Assembly: GCF_000214355.1 (NCBI RefSeq)
Contig: NC_015577.1
Coordinates: forward strand, 806,001-870,000
Length of the DNA: 64,000 nucleotides
Source of the DNA: Leadbettera azotonutricia ZAS-9
Lineage (GTDB): Bacteria > Spirochaetota > Spirochaetia > Treponematales > Breznakiellaceae
Direction: 5' to 3'
Part shown: positions 34,328 through 45,884 of the stretch, piece after piece
Position numbering within the stretch: position 1 is the stretch's first letter
Layout of the letters: every line of letters begins with the position of its first letter
Position numbers and translations under genes: made by a program
The notes under the pieces: generated by a model
Seen by the model: only the letters and a program-made list of their open reading frames with translations
What the model was told of the DNA's origin: nothing
Databases searched by the model: none

Positions 34328-34933
34328 TTAGACACTAAATGAAGCAGCATTGTCGCCGGATGTGAATGTGAGTTTCTTGATATTGAGGGTATCCTTTAAT
34401 AGAGAATAGAAAACCTCAATCAAGTTCTCGACGGTTGCGACTTTCTTGACAACCACAAGGCGGCATTCAGGATAGGCTTTTGCAAGCTCCGTATCAAAGG
34501 CTATGCCGACGCTGGTATTCCATGTTGAGCCACCCTTGATTCCCTGCGCCTCGTATACCTTGAGAAGCTCAGGAAGAATCGGGTCTTCTTTTTGCAAAAT
34601 AATCGCGTGGTCAAAGTTTACCAAATATTCCCACGCATGGTTTTTTATGCTGTTGCAAGCCACAACAAAACCATTTTTGCTGTTTACCTCGCCTTCCACT
34701 TCAAGCGTTAGTGTTCCCGTATGTCCGTGAAGATACTGCGCCTCGCCAATGTAACCCAAGAATCGATGCGCATACTGGATATTGAGTTTTGTTATTGACG
34801 TCAGCACTCTTTTTTCCCCGCCCGCCTGTTTTTCTTTGAACTCCGAAGATGCAACATGGCACACCGGACATTGAGACGGCGCGCTTTCACCCGCATGAAC
34901 ATACCCGCATTTTGAGCAAATCCATTGTTTCAT
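34328..34933 (-). CDS. Rubredoxin-like domain fused to a 6-pyruvoyl-tetrahydropterin synthase/QueD-family domain
   Basis: Residues 1-35 form a rubredoxin/rubrerythrin-type iron site (Cys6, Cys9, Cys22, Cys25: CSKCGY and CPVC). From about residue 45 the protein is a T-fold PTPS/QueD enzyme, with the first zinc histidine in YAHRFLGY and the pair in LHGHTGTL, plus NFDHAIIL and TVENLIEVFYSLL. The catalytic cysteine normally four residues before HGH is alanine here (EAQYLHGH), so the usual QueD reaction is doubtful; a glutamate lies one position earlier. An N-terminal redox site suggests electron transfer or oxygen sensing. It lies downstream of a Fur gene on the same strand. Confidence 0.82.
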   Translation of the reverse strand: MKQWICSKCGYVHAGESAPSQCPVCHVASSEFKEKQAGGEKRVLTSITKLNIQYAHRFLGYIGEAQYLHGHTGTLTLEVEGEVNSKNGFVVACNSIKNHAWEYLVNFDHAIILQKEDPILPELLKVYEAQGIKGGSTWNTSVGIAFDTELAKAYPECRLVVVKKVATVENLIEVFYSLLKDTLNIKKLTFTSGDNAASFSV

Positions 34934-35068: not shown

Positions 35069-35482
35069 TCACCTGATGTTTTGGCAAACGCCGCATAACC
35101 CTTCAAAGGTAATTGCGTGCGAATCAATGATGAAGCCGCTTTCTTGCGCCGCTTCTATATCGAATTCCGGGCGATAGGGAACGAAAACATCAAACACCTT
35201 CCCGCATTTCCGGCAGTGCAAGTGGTGATGGCGCTCCAGCCTCCGATCATAATGCAGTAGTTCAGGATCTGTCTTGATGGCGACTATTTCACCTTCTTCT
35301 TCAAGAATTTGAAGATTCCGGTAAACCGTGCCAAAACTCATGCGCTTTTTAGCCGAAACAAGCTCAAAAATCTCCCGTGCCGATAAATGATTTCCCTTGC
35401 AAACAGCATCCAATACCAGGTCGCGCTGGCTGGTGTTGCGCCGAATAGTCTTTTGATTGGCCTTATTCATAATCGGTATCAT
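35069..35482 (-). CDS. Fur-family metal/peroxide regulator (PerR-like)
   Basis: The product of about 137 residues is a Fur-family repressor: a winged helix (TSQRDLVLDAV, FGTVYRNLQILEEEGEI), the metal-site stretch LERHHHLHCRKCGKVFDV and a C-terminal CGVC pair forming the structural zinc site CxxC...CxxC. PerR, Zur and Fur cannot be separated safely by eye; HHHLHC and the short C-terminus resemble PerR. ATG 35482 lies eight bases after the -10 box and is chosen as a leaderless start; ATG 35470 is the alternative. Neither has a Shine-Dalgarno site. The downstream rubredoxin-PTPS gene may be a target. Confidence 0.85.
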   Translation of the reverse strand: MIPIMNKANQKTIRRNTSQRDLVLDAVCKGNHLSAREIFELVSAKKRMSFGTVYRNLQILEEEGEIVAIKTDPELLHYDRRLERHHHLHCRKCGKVFDVFVPYRPEFDIEAAQESGFIIDSHAITFEGLCGVCQNIR

Positions 35483-35484
35483 TA

Positions 35485-35518
35485 TTATTAGTATAGTCAT
35501 AATATGCTTTCTTGTCAA
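35485..35518 (-). promoter_or_regulatory. Promoter and probable autoregulatory operator of the Fur-family gene
   Basis: On the minus strand TTGACA (35518-35513) and TATACT (35495-35490) are exactly 17 bases apart. The -10 box lies inside an 18-base imperfect palindrome (35485-35502, outer arms TTAT and ATAA), AT-rich like Per/Fur boxes, so repressor binding would block the promoter directly. Confidence 0.7.
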
Positions 35519-35655
35519 GGATATTTTTAGCTTTTCGTTAAAAAGACGGCATTTGCCTTTTTTTTGCTGAAAATAGAGCGAAGAGGGCAAAGGATCGTTG
35601 ACTGTTATGCCTTACGATTATAAAATAAAGGTATAAAGCTGGAGGACAGTTCAGA

Positions 35656-38532: not shown

Positions 38533-38585
38533 TACGCCGGGAAGCGCGCCTAATCTGAAAAAACCATAAAAAACAGTAATTTTTG

Positions 38586-38638
38586 AATTCATCAGATAAG
38601 ATGAATTTAATTCAGCAAATTCATCAGATAAGATGAAT
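38586..38638. repeat. Two identical 21-bp palindromic repeats, 32 bp apart
   Basis: Copies lie at 38586-38606 and 38618-38638. Each has perfect seven-base arms ATTCATC and GATGAAT around AGATAA. A centre-to-centre distance of 32 bp is three helical turns, so dimers bound at both copies would face the same side. No gene with a start nearby obviously uses them. The rest of the 421-base gap between the Crp gene and cfpA is described in the next three entries. Confidence 0.85.
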
Positions 38639-38660
38639 CAAAAAAATACCAATGCGTGGC

Positions 38661-38900: not shown

Positions 38901-38932
38901 AATAAAAAAGGCTCCCGAAATTCGGGAGCCTT
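38901..38932 (-). terminator. Intrinsic terminator of cfpA
   Basis: On the minus strand twelve-base arms AAGGCTCCCGAA and TTCGGGAGCCTT (38932-38908) are followed by a T-rich run (38909-38901), 21 bases after the cfpA stop. Confidence 0.9.
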
Positions 38933-41135: not shown

Positions 41136-41714
41136 CTATATGGATTTGCCTGCTTCCCTGCCCTCGGCCATGGCCCTTGCCGCAGCATAGATAGCCTTCT
41201 TCTTGTAATCGTGGTTCCAGCGGTTTACCCCTATATAGTCGAAAATTTGGGCCCCTGTATGACGGCAGAAGCGGTCCATCTGCTCCAGGCAGGAGAGGAG
41301 GCCGTTGCCCGACCCTCCCGGGGAAGCTACAAGGAGTACCTGCTTGCCCCCAAAGGCTGATTCAGCGGCTTTCCCTTCAAACTGCCATGTGGCTTCGCAG
41401 CGGCGGAGGCGGTCAAAGAAGCTTTTGAGCCCTTCAGCCATTTCACCCCAGTACACAGGGGTGATAAAGCAGAACGCGTCCGCCTGTTTCACCTTTTCCC
41501 GGGCTTCGTCGAAGCCGTCGCCTCCGAATGAACATCGATGCTCCGTGCGACAGCTTCCCCAGCCATCGCCGCACACATGGCAGCGTCCGAGTTTCCCCAC
41601 ATTGAGGGTTTCCGCATCCGCGCCGCCGTCTTTGCAGCCCTTTATAAGTTCTTCTTCCTCCAGATGGCAGAGGCCGTCCTTTTTAGGGTTTCCGGTAATG
41701 ATAAGGTACTTCAT
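41136..41714 (-). CDS. Flavodoxin-fold NAD(P)H-dependent oxidoreductase (iron-sulphur flavoprotein-like)
   Basis: The product of 192 residues begins KYLIITGNPKKDGLCH, the FMN phosphate loop of the NADPH-dependent FMN reductase/flavodoxin-2 group. It has a cysteine-rich insert CHVCGDGWGSCRTEHRC and the typical ITPVYWGEMAEGLKSFFDRL. ATG 41714 is chosen because upstream sequence is hydrophobic noise outside the family. It diverges from the rrf2 gene by 116 bases, so it may share control with the CO dehydrogenase unit. Confidence 0.82.
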   Translation of the reverse strand: MKYLIITGNPKKDGLCHLEEEELIKGCKDGGADAETLNVGKLGRCHVCGDGWGSCRTEHRCSFGGDGFDEAREKVKQADAFCFITPVYWGEMAEGLKSFFDRLRRCEATWQFEGKAAESAFGGKQVLLVASPGGSGNGLLSCLEQMDRFCRHTGAQIFDYIGVNRWNHDYKKKAIYAAARAMAEGREAGKSI

Positions 41715-41790
41715 AGCATGATCATGGATCATAGCCTGGAATTTATCAATCCATAAAATCTCCAAAAAAATAAAAAAACGAAGAAAAAAC

Positions 41791-41820
41791 TTGACAAATT
41801 TTATCCAGTATATGTATATT
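41791..41820 (+). promoter_or_regulatory. Promoter of rrf2 with a half operator
   Basis: TTGACA (41791-41796) and TATATT (41815-41820) are 18 bases apart. TTATCCAGT, one half of the large palindrome upstream of cooS, lies between them, so the Rrf2 protein may also repress itself. The -10 box is 11 bases from the ATG and there is no Shine-Dalgarno site. Confidence 0.65.
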
Positions 41821-41830
41821 GTATAATACA

Positions 41831-42229
41831 ATGTTTATCACCAAGGAATCTGATTACGCCGTGCGCATCATACGGGAGCTTTCGAGAAGCGGCAGGGAAT
41901 CTGTCAAGGCTATCTGCGAAAGCGAAAGCATACCCATGCAGTACAGTTACAAGATACTCAAAAAACTTGAAAAAGGCGGCCTTGTGCAGGGCTATAGGGG
42001 GGCTAGCGGCGGCTATGAGCTTGCCAAAGCCCCCAAAAACATGAGCCTTTACGACGTGATAACCGCGGTTGACGAGGAAATCCTCCTCTCCGAATGTCTG
42101 GGCCACGGTTTCCGCTGCCCCATGAAGGGCAAGGGAAGGAAGGGCTGCGGCGTTCACGGGGAATTCGCGCGTATTCAGGGGCTCATACTTTCCCATCTAA
42201 AGGAAAAGTCCCTTTCAGATATAATCTGA
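41831..42229 (+). CDS. Rrf2-family transcription regulator
   Basis: A 132-residue winged-helix regulator (MFITKESDYAVRIIRELSRSG, MQYSYKILKKLEKGGLV, GASGGYELAKAP). Three cysteines (ECLGHGFRC and GCGVHG) lie near residues 88-110, where IscR/NsrR-type proteins bind an Fe-S cluster, so redox or CO/NO sensing is plausible. ATG 41831 matches family starts. The palindrome 20 bases after its stop, before cooS, is the likely target site. Confidence 0.87.
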   Translation: MFITKESDYAVRIIRELSRSGRESVKAICESESIPMQYSYKILKKLEKGGLVQGYRGASGGYELAKAPKNMSLYDVITAVDEEILLSECLGHGFRCPMKGKGRKGCGVHGEFARIQGLILSHLKEKSLSDII

Positions 42230-42249
42230 AAGCAATTTTTTTGTTATAT

Positions 42250-42276
42250 GAAACTGGATAATCATTATCCAGTTTC
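42250..42276 (+). promoter_or_regulatory. Perfect 27-bp palindrome upstream of cooS
   Basis: Thirteen-base arms GAAACTGGATAAT and ATTATCCAGTTTC flank a single C at 42263. The site lies 19-45 bases before the cooS ATG and 21 bases after the rrf2 stop. Its half TTATCCAGT recurs inside the rrf2 promoter. It is the best candidate operator for the Rrf2 protein. Confidence 0.8.
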
Positions 42277-42294: not shown

Positions 42295-44181
42295 ATGAAC
42301 GAGAGTTGTTACGGATGCAGCACCTGCGCCAGCGCGGACAAACCCCTTGAAGGGTTTATCGCGGGACTGCCGATGGAGACTTCCCACCACCGCGTGGAAA
42401 GCCAGGAGACAAAGTGCGGCTTCGGCCTGCAGGGGGTATGCTGCAGGCTCTGTGCCAACGGCCCCTGCCGCATCACCCCTGAATCGCCCAGGGGCATTTG
42501 CGGCGCTACCGCCGATGTGATGGTTACGCGCAATTTATTGAGGGCGGTGGCCTCGGGATCGGGCTGCTATATCCACGTGGTGGAAAACACCGCCCTGAAC
42601 CTCAGGAACACGGCCATCGAAAAGGGCAAGTTCAAAGGCCCAGGCGCACTCGAACGGCTCTGCAAGCTTTTCGGCGTTTCGGGCAAGGACGATTACGAAA
42701 AAGCCCTCAATGTGTCGAACGCGGTTTTGAACGATCTTTACAAACCCGAATATGTCAAAATGGATCTGGTAGAAAAGATGGCCTATCCTCCCCGCTTCAA
42801 AGTGTGGAAAGAACTTGGCATACTCCCCGGAGGCGCCAAGTCAGAAGTGTTCAAGGGCGTGGTTAAGTGTTCCACCAACCTCAATTCGGATCCGGTGAAC
42901 ATGCTCCTCGACTGCCTCAAGCTGGGCATCTCCACAGGAATCTACGGCCTTACCCTTACGAACCTTTTGAACGACGTGCTTCTTGGGGAACCTGAAATCC
43001 GTATGGCCCCTGTGGGGCTGCGCGTCATCGATCCCGATTATATCAACATCATGATCACAGGCCACCAACACACGATGTTCGTGCATCTCCAGGAGAGGCT
43101 TACCGAGCCCGATGTGGTTGCCAAGGCAAAAGCTGTAGGCGCAAAAGGTTTTAAGCTCGTGGGCTGTACCTGCGTAGGCCAGGATCTCCAGCTCCGGGGC
43201 GCACACTACACGGAGATCTTCGACGGGCACGCGGGGAACAACTACACCTCCGAGGCCATACTGGCCACAGGCGGCATCGACGCGGTGATTTCCGAATTCA
43301 ACTGCACACTTCCGGGCATCGAGCCTATCTGCGATGAACTTTTGATTAAGCAGATTTGTGTTGATGATGTAGCGAAAAAGGCCAACGCGGAATATGTGCC
43401 TTTCACCTTTGCCGATAGAGGTAAACAGAGCGAAATCATCATCGACAAGATTATTGCGGCTTATAAAGAACGGCGGCCCAAGGTAAAGCTCAACCTTCTG
43501 CCCGAACACGGCTACGAAAACAACCTTACGGGCGTGAGCGAAGTATCGCTCAAAAAATTCCTGGGTGGCAGCTGGAAGCCCCTCATCGATCTCATCGTAT
43601 CAGGCGACATCAAAGGTGTTGCCGGTGTGGTGGGCTGTTCAAGCCTGGTTGCCGGAGGCCACGATGTGCTCACGGTGGCCCTCGTAAAGGAACTTATCGC
43701 CAAAGATATTATCGTCCTTACTGCGGGCTGTTCCTCAGGGGGTATCGAAAACTGCGGACTCATGGTTCCCGAAGCTGCCGAGCTTGCTGGCCCGAAGCTC
43801 AAGGCGGTGTGCAAAAAGCTTGGGATTCCTCCTGTGCTGAATTTCGGTCCTTGCCTTGCCATAGGACGCCTTGAGATTGTTGCTACCGAACTTGCGGAGG
43901 CCATAGGCATAGACATACCCCAGCTTCCCCTGGTGCTGTCCGCGGCTCAGTGGCTTGAAGAGCAGGCCCTGGCCGATGGCTGTTTCGGCCTTGCCCTGGG
44001 GCTTCCCCTGCATCTCGGGCTTCCTCCCTTTGTAACGGGCAGCAAAGTTGCGACACAGGTTCTCTGTCAGGATATGAAGGCCCTGACAGGAGGACAGGTG
44101 ATCATCAATGGGGATGCCAAAGAATCAGCGGAGCTGCTTGAGAAGGTCATTCTCGAAAAACGCGCGGCCTTGAAGATATAG
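42295..44181 (+). CDS. cooS: Anaerobic carbon monoxide dehydrogenase, catalytic subunit
   Basis: CooS interconverts CO and CO2 at a nickel-iron-sulphur C-cluster. The 628-residue protein has the N-terminal cysteine sets for the D and B clusters (CYGCSTC, then CGFGLQGVCCRLCANGPC). It also has VGCTCVGQDLQLRG near 290 and later C-cluster cysteines (EFNCTLPG, GVVGCSS, LTAGCSSGGIENCG). Length is that of the monofunctional CooS/Cdh type rather than the acetyl-CoA synthase-bound form, and no acsB, cooC or corrinoid methyltransferase gene lies here. GGAGG precedes the ATG. It is followed by a ferredoxin and an FAD oxidoreductase gene. Confidence 0.95.
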   Translation: MNESCYGCSTCASADKPLEGFIAGLPMETSHHRVESQETKCGFGLQGVCCRLCANGPCRITPESPRGICGATADVMVTRNLLRAVASGSGCYIHVVENTALNLRNTAIEKGKFKGPGALERLCKLFGVSGKDDYEKALNVSNAVLNDLYKPEYVKMDLVEKMAYPPRFKVWKELGILPGGAKSEVFKGVVKCSTNLNSDPVNMLLDCLKLGISTGIYGLTLTNLLNDVLLGEPEIRMAPVGLRVIDPDYINIMITGHQHTMFVHLQERLTEPDVVAKAKAVGAKGFKLVGCTCVGQDLQLRGAHYTEIFDGHAGNNYTSEAILATGGIDAVISEFNCTLPGIEPICDELLIKQICVDDVAKKANAEYVPFTFADRGKQSEIIIDKIIAAYKERRPKVKLNLLPEHGYENNLTGVSEVSLKKFLGGSWKPLIDLIVSGDIKGVAGVVGCSSLVAGGHDVLTVALVKELIAKDIIVLTAGCSSGGIENCGLMVPEAAELAGPKLKAVCKKLGIPPVLNFGPCLAIGRLEIVATELAEAIGIDIPQLPLVLSAAQWLEEQALADGCFGLALGLPLHLGLPPFVTGSKVATQVLCQDMKALTGGQVIINGDAKESAELLEKVILEKRAALKI

Positions 44182-44191
44182 GGGGCCGGAT

Positions 44192-44659
44192 ATGCTGAAT
44201 ACCATGAAACGAATTTTTATTGACAGGGAAAAGTGCGACGGCTGTAAAAACTGCACTGTCGCCTGTATGCAGGCTCACAGGGCAACGCCCGGAACGGTCT
44301 ATGACCTTGACCTTCTGGATCGCAAAAATGAAGCCCGCCATACCATTGTGAGCGACGGCAAAGGCAGGTACACTCCTGTCTTCTGCCGCCACTGCGCGGT
44401 ACCGGACTGTGTCGGCGCCTGCATGTCGGGGGCTCTTAAAAAAGAGCCCGATACAGGCCATGTGCAGTACGACGAAAAACGCTGCGGCACTTGCTTCATG
44501 TGCGTTATGAGCTGTCCCTATGGCAATGTCAAGCCTGATAAGGCCACCCGCTCAAAGATCCTCAAATGCGATTTCTGCAAAGACGATCCCGAGGGTCCCA
44601 ACTGCGTGAGGGCTTGTCCAAAAAAGGCCATCTGGGTTGAAGAAGTGGAGGTTTTGTAG
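44192..44659 (+). CDS. cooF: CooF-like 4Fe-4S ferredoxin protein
   Basis: A 155-residue polyferredoxin of the DMSO-reductase B-subunit/CooF type with four cysteine clusters: CDGCKNCTVAC, CRHCAVPDCVGAC, CGTCFMCVMSC and CDFCKDD...CVRAC. It should carry electrons from CooS to the next enzyme. GGGGG six bases upstream favours ATG 44192; a second ATG at 44204 is possible. It lies ten bases after cooS. Confidence 0.85.
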   Translation: MLNTMKRIFIDREKCDGCKNCTVACMQAHRATPGTVYDLDLLDRKNEARHTIVSDGKGRYTPVFCRHCAVPDCVGACMSGALKKEPDTGHVQYDEKRCGTCFMCVMSCPYGNVKPDKATRSKILKCDFCKDDPEGPNCVRACPKKAIWVEEVEVL

Positions 44660-44660
44660 A

Positions 44661-45884
44661 ATGAAACATCTCATTATCGGCGCAGGAGCCGCTGCTGTCA
44701 GCGCAGTCAGAAGAATCCTCAAGGAAAAACCCGAGGACACGGTAGTAATAGTGTCCCAGGATGAGGAAGTCTACTCCCGCTGCATGCTCCACAAATTTAT
44801 TTCAGGCGAGCGCGACGCCCCGAGCATCAATTTTATTAACGATGATATCTTTGCTCACAAGAATGTCCAGTGGATCAAGGGCAAAACCATTACCCGCCTT
44901 GATGGCGCGACAAAGACTGTGTACGCGGGGGACGAAAAAATCGCTTCAGGCGACACTGTTCTTATCGCCACAGGCAGCAACAGTGTTACACCTCCCATCG
45001 GCGAACTCAAAACCGCGAAGAACGCCTTCGGCCTCCGCCACCTTTCAGACGCGCGGGCCATTGCCGGCAGCGCTAAAAGCGCCAAAGAAGTGGTCATCAT
45101 AGGCGCGGGCCTCGTGGGCCTCGATGCCGCCTATGCGCTTTTGGAATTGGGGAAGAAGCTCACCATTATCGAAATGGCCCCCACCGCCCTTGCCATTAAC
45201 CTCGACGCCCACGGCGCCGAGGCTTACCAGAAGCTCTTTGAAGCCAAGGGCGTGACTTTCCATCTGGCGCGTAAAGTGGTTAACACTAAAGGTGACGGCG
45301 CCGGTAACATTACAGGCGTGGAAATGGACAACGGCGTTACTGTCCCCTGCGATATGGTGGTCATGGCAGTGGGCGTGCGCGCCGCCATTGCCTTCCTCGA
45401 AGGCTCCGGCGTGAAAACCGAAAGGGCAGTGGTAGTGGATGATTATCTCGCAACCAGCGTACCCGGCATTTATGCCGCCGGCGACGTAGCGGGCCTTTCG
45501 GGTATTTGGCCCAATGCCCAGAAGCAGGGAGAGATGGCGGCCTACAACATGACCGGCACCAAGTGGGCTTATGACGACAGGTTTGCCATCAAGAACACCA
45601 TCAATTTTTTCGGCCTTCCTTCGCTTTCGCTGGGGGCGATAAATCCCCAGGAGGGTGATACGGTGCTTGTCAAGGAAGATCGCGGCAATTACCGCAAGAT
45701 CATACTCCGCGACGGCGCCCCTGCGGGGGTTATACTCCAGGGTGAAATCGGCGGCTCAGGTTTCTGGCTCCATCTCATCAAGAACAAGATCCGTATCGAC
45801 AAGCTGGGGAAATCCCCTTGGAAAGTGACGTATGCGGACTTCTTCGGGCTGGAGGCTAATGGCGAGTACAAGTACGTGGTTTAG
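44661..45884 (+). CDS. FAD-dependent NAD(P)H oxidoreductase of the CODH unit
   Basis: The 407-residue flavoprotein has two dinucleotide folds (LIIGAGAAAVSAVRR at the start, VVIIGAGLVGLDAAYALLELG near 140) and the FAD-site ending TSVPGIYAAGDVAG near 265, as in rubredoxin or NADH-oxidase-like reductases. Clusters of cooS, cooF and such a reductase are known in other anaerobes and are thought to pass CO-derived electrons to NAD(P). GGAGG precedes ATG 44661, one base after the cooF stop, so the three genes form one unit. Confidence 0.87.
   Translation: MKHLIIGAGAAAVSAVRRILKEKPEDTVVIVSQDEEVYSRCMLHKFISGERDAPSINFINDDIFAHKNVQWIKGKTITRLDGATKTVYAGDEKIASGDTVLIATGSNSVTPPIGELKTAKNAFGLRHLSDARAIAGSAKSAKEVVIIGAGLVGLDAAYALLELGKKLTIIEMAPTALAINLDAHGAEAYQKLFEAKGVTFHLARKVVNTKGDGAGNITGVEMDNGVTVPCDMVVMAVGVRAAIAFLEGSGVKTERAVVVDDYLATSVPGIYAAGDVAGLSGIWPNAQKQGEMAAYNMTGTKWAYDDRFAIKNTINFFGLPSLSLGAINPQEGDTVLVKEDRGNYRKIILRDGAPAGVILQGEIGGSGFWLHLIKNKIRIDKLGKSPWKVTYADFFGLEANGEYKYVV

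Follow-up and report, generated by a model that had tools for sequence, protein, structure and literature searches.

The rrf2-cooS locus and its two palindromic elements

The window, by which we mean the whole 64-kb stretch of DNA analyzed here, is part of a genome of 3,855,671 bases in a single contig and contains a cluster in which an Rrf2-family regulator gene (rrf2) precedes the genes for a CO dehydrogenase (CODH), an electron-transfer protein, and an oxidoreductase (Table 1). For comparison, a CooS search provided 80 loci from 168 relatives. The divergent flavodoxin-like gene (41136-41711) was rejected as a partner of the cluster, since it was found beside none of the 80 relative loci.

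Table 1. Positions of the genes and sequence elements of the rrf2-cooS cluster in the window
Feature	Position	Strand	Description
Operator 1, predicted autoregulatory	41787..41811	+	AAACTTGACAAATTTTATCCAGTAT, 25 bp, imperfect palindrome overlapping the rrf2 promoter; right half, TTATCCAGT
rrf2 promoter	41791..41820	+	-35 TTGACA 41791-41796, spacer 18, -10 TATATT 41815-41820; sigma-70-like, 11/12 consensus positions
rrf2	41831..42229	+	132-aa Rrf2-family regulator; Pfam Rrf2 1.2e-24
Terminator-like hairpin, rrf2 end	42212..42243	+	stem 42212-42232, then T run; RNA fold
Operator 2, cooS side	42250..42276	.	perfect 13-1-13 palindrome GAAACTGGATAATCATTATCCAGTTTC; cooS start codon 18 bp on
cooS, monofunctional Ni-Fe CO dehydrogenase	42295..44181	+	TIGR01702 2.7e-222, above cut-off
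cooF-like 4Fe-4S electron-transfer protein	44192..44659	+	adjoins 79/80 relative cooS genes
FAD/NAD oxidoreductase (FNOR), same cluster	44661..45884	+	adjoins 77/80 relative cooS genes

The 65-bp gap between rrf2 and cooS holds the 27-bp palindrome that the initial annotation had described as perfect, with 13-base arms centered on C42263; this was confirmed, the arms (42250-42262 and 42264-42276, 13 nt each) being 100% complementary. Odd perfect palindromes with 13-nt arms are expected about 0.001 times per 64 kb at the composition of the window and up to 0.01 times at an AT-rich composition, and 0.06 to 0.6 times over the whole 3.86-Mb genome. Thus, a palindrome of this length stands out in the 65-bp gap and in the window but less so genome-wide. 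The palindrome (operator 2) lies between the terminator-like hairpin at the rrf2 end and the cooS ribosome site, and a consensus search made no sigma-70-like promoter visible for cooS itself.

Three copies of TTATCCAGT are present in the window, one at 41801-41809 and one in each arm of the palindrome; shuffled sequences gave 0.32 on average and at most 2. The copy at 41801-41809 had been taken for a half site in the rrf2 promoter; the arm sequence is there, but it belongs to the full 25-bp operator AAACTTGACAAATTTTATCCAGTAT (operator 1), in which 18 of 25 positions are symmetric in the 25-bp register and whose left half includes the -35 TTGACA. In a repeat search, 41787-41809 paired with 42251-42273 at 78% over 23 nt.

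Two other repeats were seen in intergenic parts of the window. At 38908-38932, a second perfect odd palindrome with 12-nt arms (AAGGCTCCCGAA A TTCGGGAGCCTT) lies between convergent genes and looks like a shared two-way terminator. The other, TTCATCAGATAAGATGAA, has the form of an inverted repeat and is present in two nearby copies at 38580-38640.

Conservation of the motif and its relation to the regulator

A full rrf2 ortholog (37-64% identity) was found directly upstream of cooS in 37 of the 80 relative loci, and the rrf2-cooS pairs with these sites span Spirochaetota, Bacillota and Synergistota. With the window counted, 36 of the 37 usable rrf2 promoters have one motif (consensus AAACTTGACAAAAATnGTCCAGTAT) with the -35 box inside; L071 was left out of this count because its upstream stretch is only 17 bp, and the site of L104 was missed at the threshold (10 bits, set after the scores were seen). 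A -10 hexamer of 4/6 or better at a spacing of 16-19 is kept beside 30 of the 36 sites (shuffled tails, mean 15.9, maximum 23). When a window-free motif trained on the 35 relative rrf2-promoter sites was scanned over the 64 kb, position 41787 ranked first (31.8 bits), 42251 second (17.5 bits), and the next unrelated place had 6.0 bits, scores that favor rrf2 sites by construction and carry no information on affinity.

On the cooS side, a site of at least 10 bits was found in 24 of the 38 rrf2-cooS gaps, for each of which only 0 or 1 of 200 shuffles was as good, and the other 14 gaps had none at this threshold. None of the six gaps that are at most 50 bp long has the site, which leaves the rrf2 promoter as the only one that cooS can follow in these loci. 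The palindrome of L050 has a shorter center. A -10-like hexamer just ahead of the cooS-side site was seen in 10 of the 24 gaps, which is not convincing (shuffles, mean 5.0, maximum 11), and a linked module of terminator and operator was not evident in the 38 gaps (10/12 vs 14/26, p = 0.15). Since the rrf2-promoter site is nearly universal and the cooS-side site is not, autoregulation appears to form the conserved core, to which the cooS-side site was added. In the initial annotation, control of CooS had been suggested to be strong and autoregulation weaker; the weighting in the relatives (36/37 vs 24/38) is the reverse.

If the palindrome instead acted as an RNA hairpin in the rrf2-cooS transcript (a terminator, processing site or leader structure), the strong RNA folding of the gap (z = -4.4), in which the palindrome forms a 12-bp hairpin, would be explained. 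However, no T run follows the palindrome, and in relatives the cooS-side site is often symmetric at only 12-18 of 25 positions while the DNA motif is kept, so that the hairpin is not conserved as such. Furthermore, the same motif lies over the rrf2 -35 boxes, where it would not be transcribed as a unit. We consider this explanation very unlikely.

In another explanation, one of two FUR-family proteins binds a Fur-family box of the 7-1-7 type in the palindrome core GGATAATCATTATCC, the likeness to the rrf2 promoter being secondary. The core matches 12 of the 14 letters of TGATAATnATTATCA, the Fur-box consensus, and the genome has two FUR-family genes, both PerR/Fur-like, one of them in the window (35105-35440, within the gene at 35069-35590). 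However, there are 53 Fur-like sites (two mismatches or fewer) in the genome, and of the 12 that were inspected among the 52 others, 11 lie in ORFs and only that at 2095063 is outside ORFs of at least 90 aa; no group of Fur boxes was seen ahead of iron or peroxide genes among these 12. In addition, the letters of the core change in relatives (GGACTAAATTAGTCAAG, CTATACTAAAATAGTATAG) while the Rrf2 motif persists. On the basis of the 12 inspected sites and the changing core letters, a Fur box is improbable. The PerR/Fur-like gene of the window adjoins an ORF (34328-34933) in which a rubrerythrin-type rubredoxin domain is fused to a 6-pyruvoyl-tetrahydropterin synthase (QueD-like) domain.

Binding of the palindrome and of its own promoter by the adjacent Rrf2 is consistent with a concerted change of protein and operator. 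Of the 36 rrf2-promoter sites, 10 have A at position +6 and 26 have C or T (L104 was left out of this count). All 10 with A go with Ile, Val or Met at residue 38 of the protein, and 25 of the 26 with C or T go with Phe or Tyr; L100 has Asn at this residue. In the cooS-side sites, G-6 and C+6 were found in 16 of 16 in one clade, and T-6 in 7 of 8 and A+6 in 6 of 8 in the other. Residue 38 is within helix 36-48, the recognition helix (AlphaFold2 model, pLDDT 92.6). That the sites of both genes switch with residue 38 supports a single protein reading both sites. On a protein tree built without the recognition helix, the letter switch needs one or two changes; it corresponds to one split and thus represents one event over many rows, not an independent replicate.

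A later ortholog search matched 24 of 391 genomes, one already known, and gave 23 further orthologs. Three of these have a strong upstream site (more than 20 bits) and all three obey the clade rule, two of them being followed by an acyl-CoA dehydrogenase-like gene; the other 20 are without such a site. More distant Rrf2 relatives (L230-L232, L238, L239, L241 and L243) were seen before a rubrerythrin-like gene (one gene was HMM-tested and the rest were judged by eye), and some of these distant relatives have TGTAC...GTATACA-type repeats upstream. A Spirochaetota protein search for close Rrf2 orthologs matched 71 of 392 genomes at 1e-10, at 26-42% identity for all but the window's own; these loci were not used.

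The site and the regulator also occur together when they are not adjacent. In many Blautia-like genomes, rrf2 is away from cooS, yet cooS bears ATACTTGACTAATTTAATCCAG with the -35 box inside. Among clostridial genomes without an adjacent rrf2, an unlinked ortholog (162-177 bits) was found in 15 of the 18 with the cooS site and in none of the 11 without it, in which the best paralogs reached about 65 bits or less (Fisher p = 1e-5, ignoring the kinship of the genomes). With ten spirochaete genomes added, the counts are 15 of 21 and 0 of 18. The search behind these counts covered 41 genomes for 43 loci, with L035 and L043 left out, and used an ortholog cut of more than 160 bits chosen after the scores were seen; the three clostridial genomes with the site and no strong ortholog scored 67, 86 and 101 bits. 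In three spirochaete genomes an operator-like site was seen but no ortholog: L036, L044 (where a remnant of rrf2 is kept) and L052 (where a 26% Rrf2 relative lies downstream of cooS). The stretch upstream of the unlinked ortholog has the motif in 8 of 15 cases (15.8-18.9 bits). In 12 of the 15 loci (L149-L163, Blautia-like genomes) this ortholog adjoins a pyruvate:ferredoxin oxidoreductase (PFOR) gene, and the 12 upstream stretches of PFOR have no operator site of at least 10 bits.

In the related termite spirochaetes L035, L036 and L044, rrf2 is a remnant or gone and an operator-like site still stands before cooS, as if the control were being lost. In L069 (Synergistaceae), the rrf2 promoter is covered by an inverted repeat of 31 bp, TATATACTTGACTAATTTTGTCAAGTATATA, whose sequence comes close to the IscR type-1 box.

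The genome scan proposed in the initial annotation was run with patterns. With these patterns, no other convincing intergenic operator site was found in the whole genome. There is one other full match. This operator-like sequence (G000:C1:3184660-3184681, 23.4 bits) lies within an ORF whose product, judged by eye, resembles a periplasmic binding protein, and may be a chance match or a real intragenic site. Eleven of the other pattern hits, in 10 regions, were checked, of which eight are in ORFs and three are intergenic with three mismatches; the hits at 3790518 and 3790656 are within a small ORF, possibly spurious.

Taken together, motif conservation, co-occurrence with the unlinked ortholog, and the concerted change with the recognition helix bear out the link drawn earlier between the palindrome and the neighboring Rrf2, which very probably binds both the palindrome and its own promoter, as predicted from sequence.

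Properties of the Rrf2 protein

The protein belongs to the Rrf2 superfamily (PF02082, 87.4 bits vs a cut-off of 30; TIGR00738, 92.7 vs 73.3) and did not reach the models for IscR (TIGR02010, 57.4 vs 207.55 bits), NsrR (NCBIfam NF008240, 25.3 vs 182), RirA (56.6 vs 193), CymR (41.1 vs 195) or the SUF regulator (78.9 vs 110.65). In fold searches, IscR, CymR, RsrR and NsrR chains ranked close together; thus, the fold does not choose among them.

D8, R12, Tyr40, Lys41, C89, C96, C106 and H109 are invariant in 26 aligned orthologs, a chosen subset of the 37 plus the window, and in the alignment of all 38 the three Cys and the His are visible by eye. The NsrR cluster is held by three Cys of one subunit together with Asp8 of its partner, to which Arg12 bridges (PMC5411485), and in IscR three Cys and His107 hold the cluster, the holo form binding the type-1 box (PMC6599224, PMC12594620). 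At the residue level, the window Rrf2 has the [4Fe-4S] ligand set of NsrR from Streptomyces coelicolor (Asp8 and three Cys, with the salt-bridge residue Arg12), as well as the three Cys and the CxxH His of IscR (C89, C96, C106 and H109). The conservation of the three Cys, Asp8, Arg12 and the CxxH His makes a redox- or gas-labile Fe-S cluster likely. Unlike that of NsrR, the predicted target of the window Rrf2 is not NO detoxification, and the protein has the IscR-type His in addition.

The 36 rrf2-promoter sites match the type-1 box ATASYYGACTRWWWYAGTCRRSTAT at 16-24 of 25 positions (mean 19.3), compared with a best match in random 120-bp sequences of 15.5 on average (95% at 17, maximum 20 among 500 sequences). 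Operator 1 fits at 20 of 25 positions; the palindrome fits at 16 of 25, which is no better than chance in 120 bp. IscR autoregulation of iscR in E. coli and P. aeruginosa likewise uses a 25-bp type-1 site of similar letters over the regulator's own promoter. However, the Glu43-Gln44 of the IscR recognition helix was not found, invariant Tyr40-Lys41 being at the aligned places, and the IscR target is isc, in contrast to the CODH operon predicted here. The genome encodes four Rrf2 proteins, the other three of which carry Arg at the Asp8 place (by eye). Although this number and the likeness of the operator to the type-1 box would allow a paralog, such as the IscR-like one at 1888855, to be the true binder, this is a very improbable reading, as the site tracks the ortholog of the neighboring gene in presence and letters and weak paralogs are present alike in genomes with and without the site.

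CooA and RcoM, which control anaerobic CODH genes, as is predicted for the window Rrf2, are heme-based sensors of families other than Rrf2. Pfam found only the Rrf2 domain in the window regulator, with no CRP-like or PAS-LytTR domain as in CooA and RcoM, so the system differs from theirs, as had been proposed. The heme-based nature of RcoM is described in PMC4703632.

A possible mode of control and its meaning

We think it fairly likely that this Rrf2 is a dedicated, autoregulated Fe-S repressor of the clade C CODH operon, acting at the two operators and relieved by damage or oxidation of the cluster. In this model, the protein would be a winged-helix homodimer whose Fe-S cluster is held by Cys89, Cys96 and Cys106, with a fourth ligand provided either by Asp8 of the partner subunit (the NsrR arrangement) or by His109 (the IscR arrangement). 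Bound to operator 1, holo-Rrf2 would cover the -35 box and spacer and shut its own promoter; this position of the operator points, as with IscR site B in P. aeruginosa, to repression. Bound to operator 2, immediately ahead of the cooS ribosome site, it would block transcription into cooS-cooF-FNOR. Since no promoter is evident for cooS, operator 2 may either occlude a weak promoter or halt transcription that reads through from rrf2. Once oxygen, NO, redox stress or a poor Fe-S supply had led to loss or oxidation of the cluster, the protein would be released and the operon turned on.

Regarding the signal, PMC7494833 lists the homologous genes of Clostridioides difficile among those induced by aerobic stress or connected with oxidative/nitrosative stress and sigma-B. 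This listing, together with the ligand set and the rubrerythrin-type genes beside distant orthologs, favors a redox or nitrosative signal. C. difficile cooS is also reported to go down at low iron (PMC6311696), which, if that species has this Rrf2, would argue against simple derepression by cluster or iron loss. A further possibility is that a distinct Rrf2 subgroup with mixed NsrR/IscR ligands and the Tyr-Lys helix senses CO or NO at a site-differentiated cluster, so that Spirochaetota, Bacillota and Synergistota would share a non-heme sensor of gases dedicated to CODH control; we regard this as unlikely. A CO sensor, in which CO binding to the cluster turns the operon on, is also very unlikely. 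CO dehydrogenase is the main conserved target of this Rrf2 here, and a diatomic gas might displace Asp8, following the NsrR precedent (PMC5411485). However, no benefit of CO was reported for Treponema azotonutricium (PMC3082573), orthologs are also found before PFOR or acyl-CoA dehydrogenase genes, and the stress and sigma-B association of the C. difficile homologs (PMC7494833) also speaks against it. CO sensing by the window Rrf2 is thus not supported.

The linkage of rrf2 and cooS is not new. In 2011, an Rrf2 regulator gene was noted ahead of several clade C cooS genes (PMC3082573), and a figure legend of 2015 marks an Rrf2 gene in similar clusters (PMC4703632). The neighborhood described in PMC3082573 has the same cooS, 4Fe-4S protein and FAD/NAD oxidoreductase genes, in several bacteria after an Rrf2 gene, but unlike the present case the relevant passages of that paper give no operator, residues or mechanism. 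A limited literature search found no published operator or function for the cooS-linked Rrf2.

The role of clade C CODHs has been called enigmatic (PMC3082573), and for those of gut bacteria and termite spirochaetes there is no agreed role. The signal that releases the repressor would tell when the enzyme is wanted, and a regulator with two defined operators would make the role of the clade C CODH testable. It would also add to the Rrf2 family a naturally evolved change of DNA specificity for which a candidate residue and base can be named.
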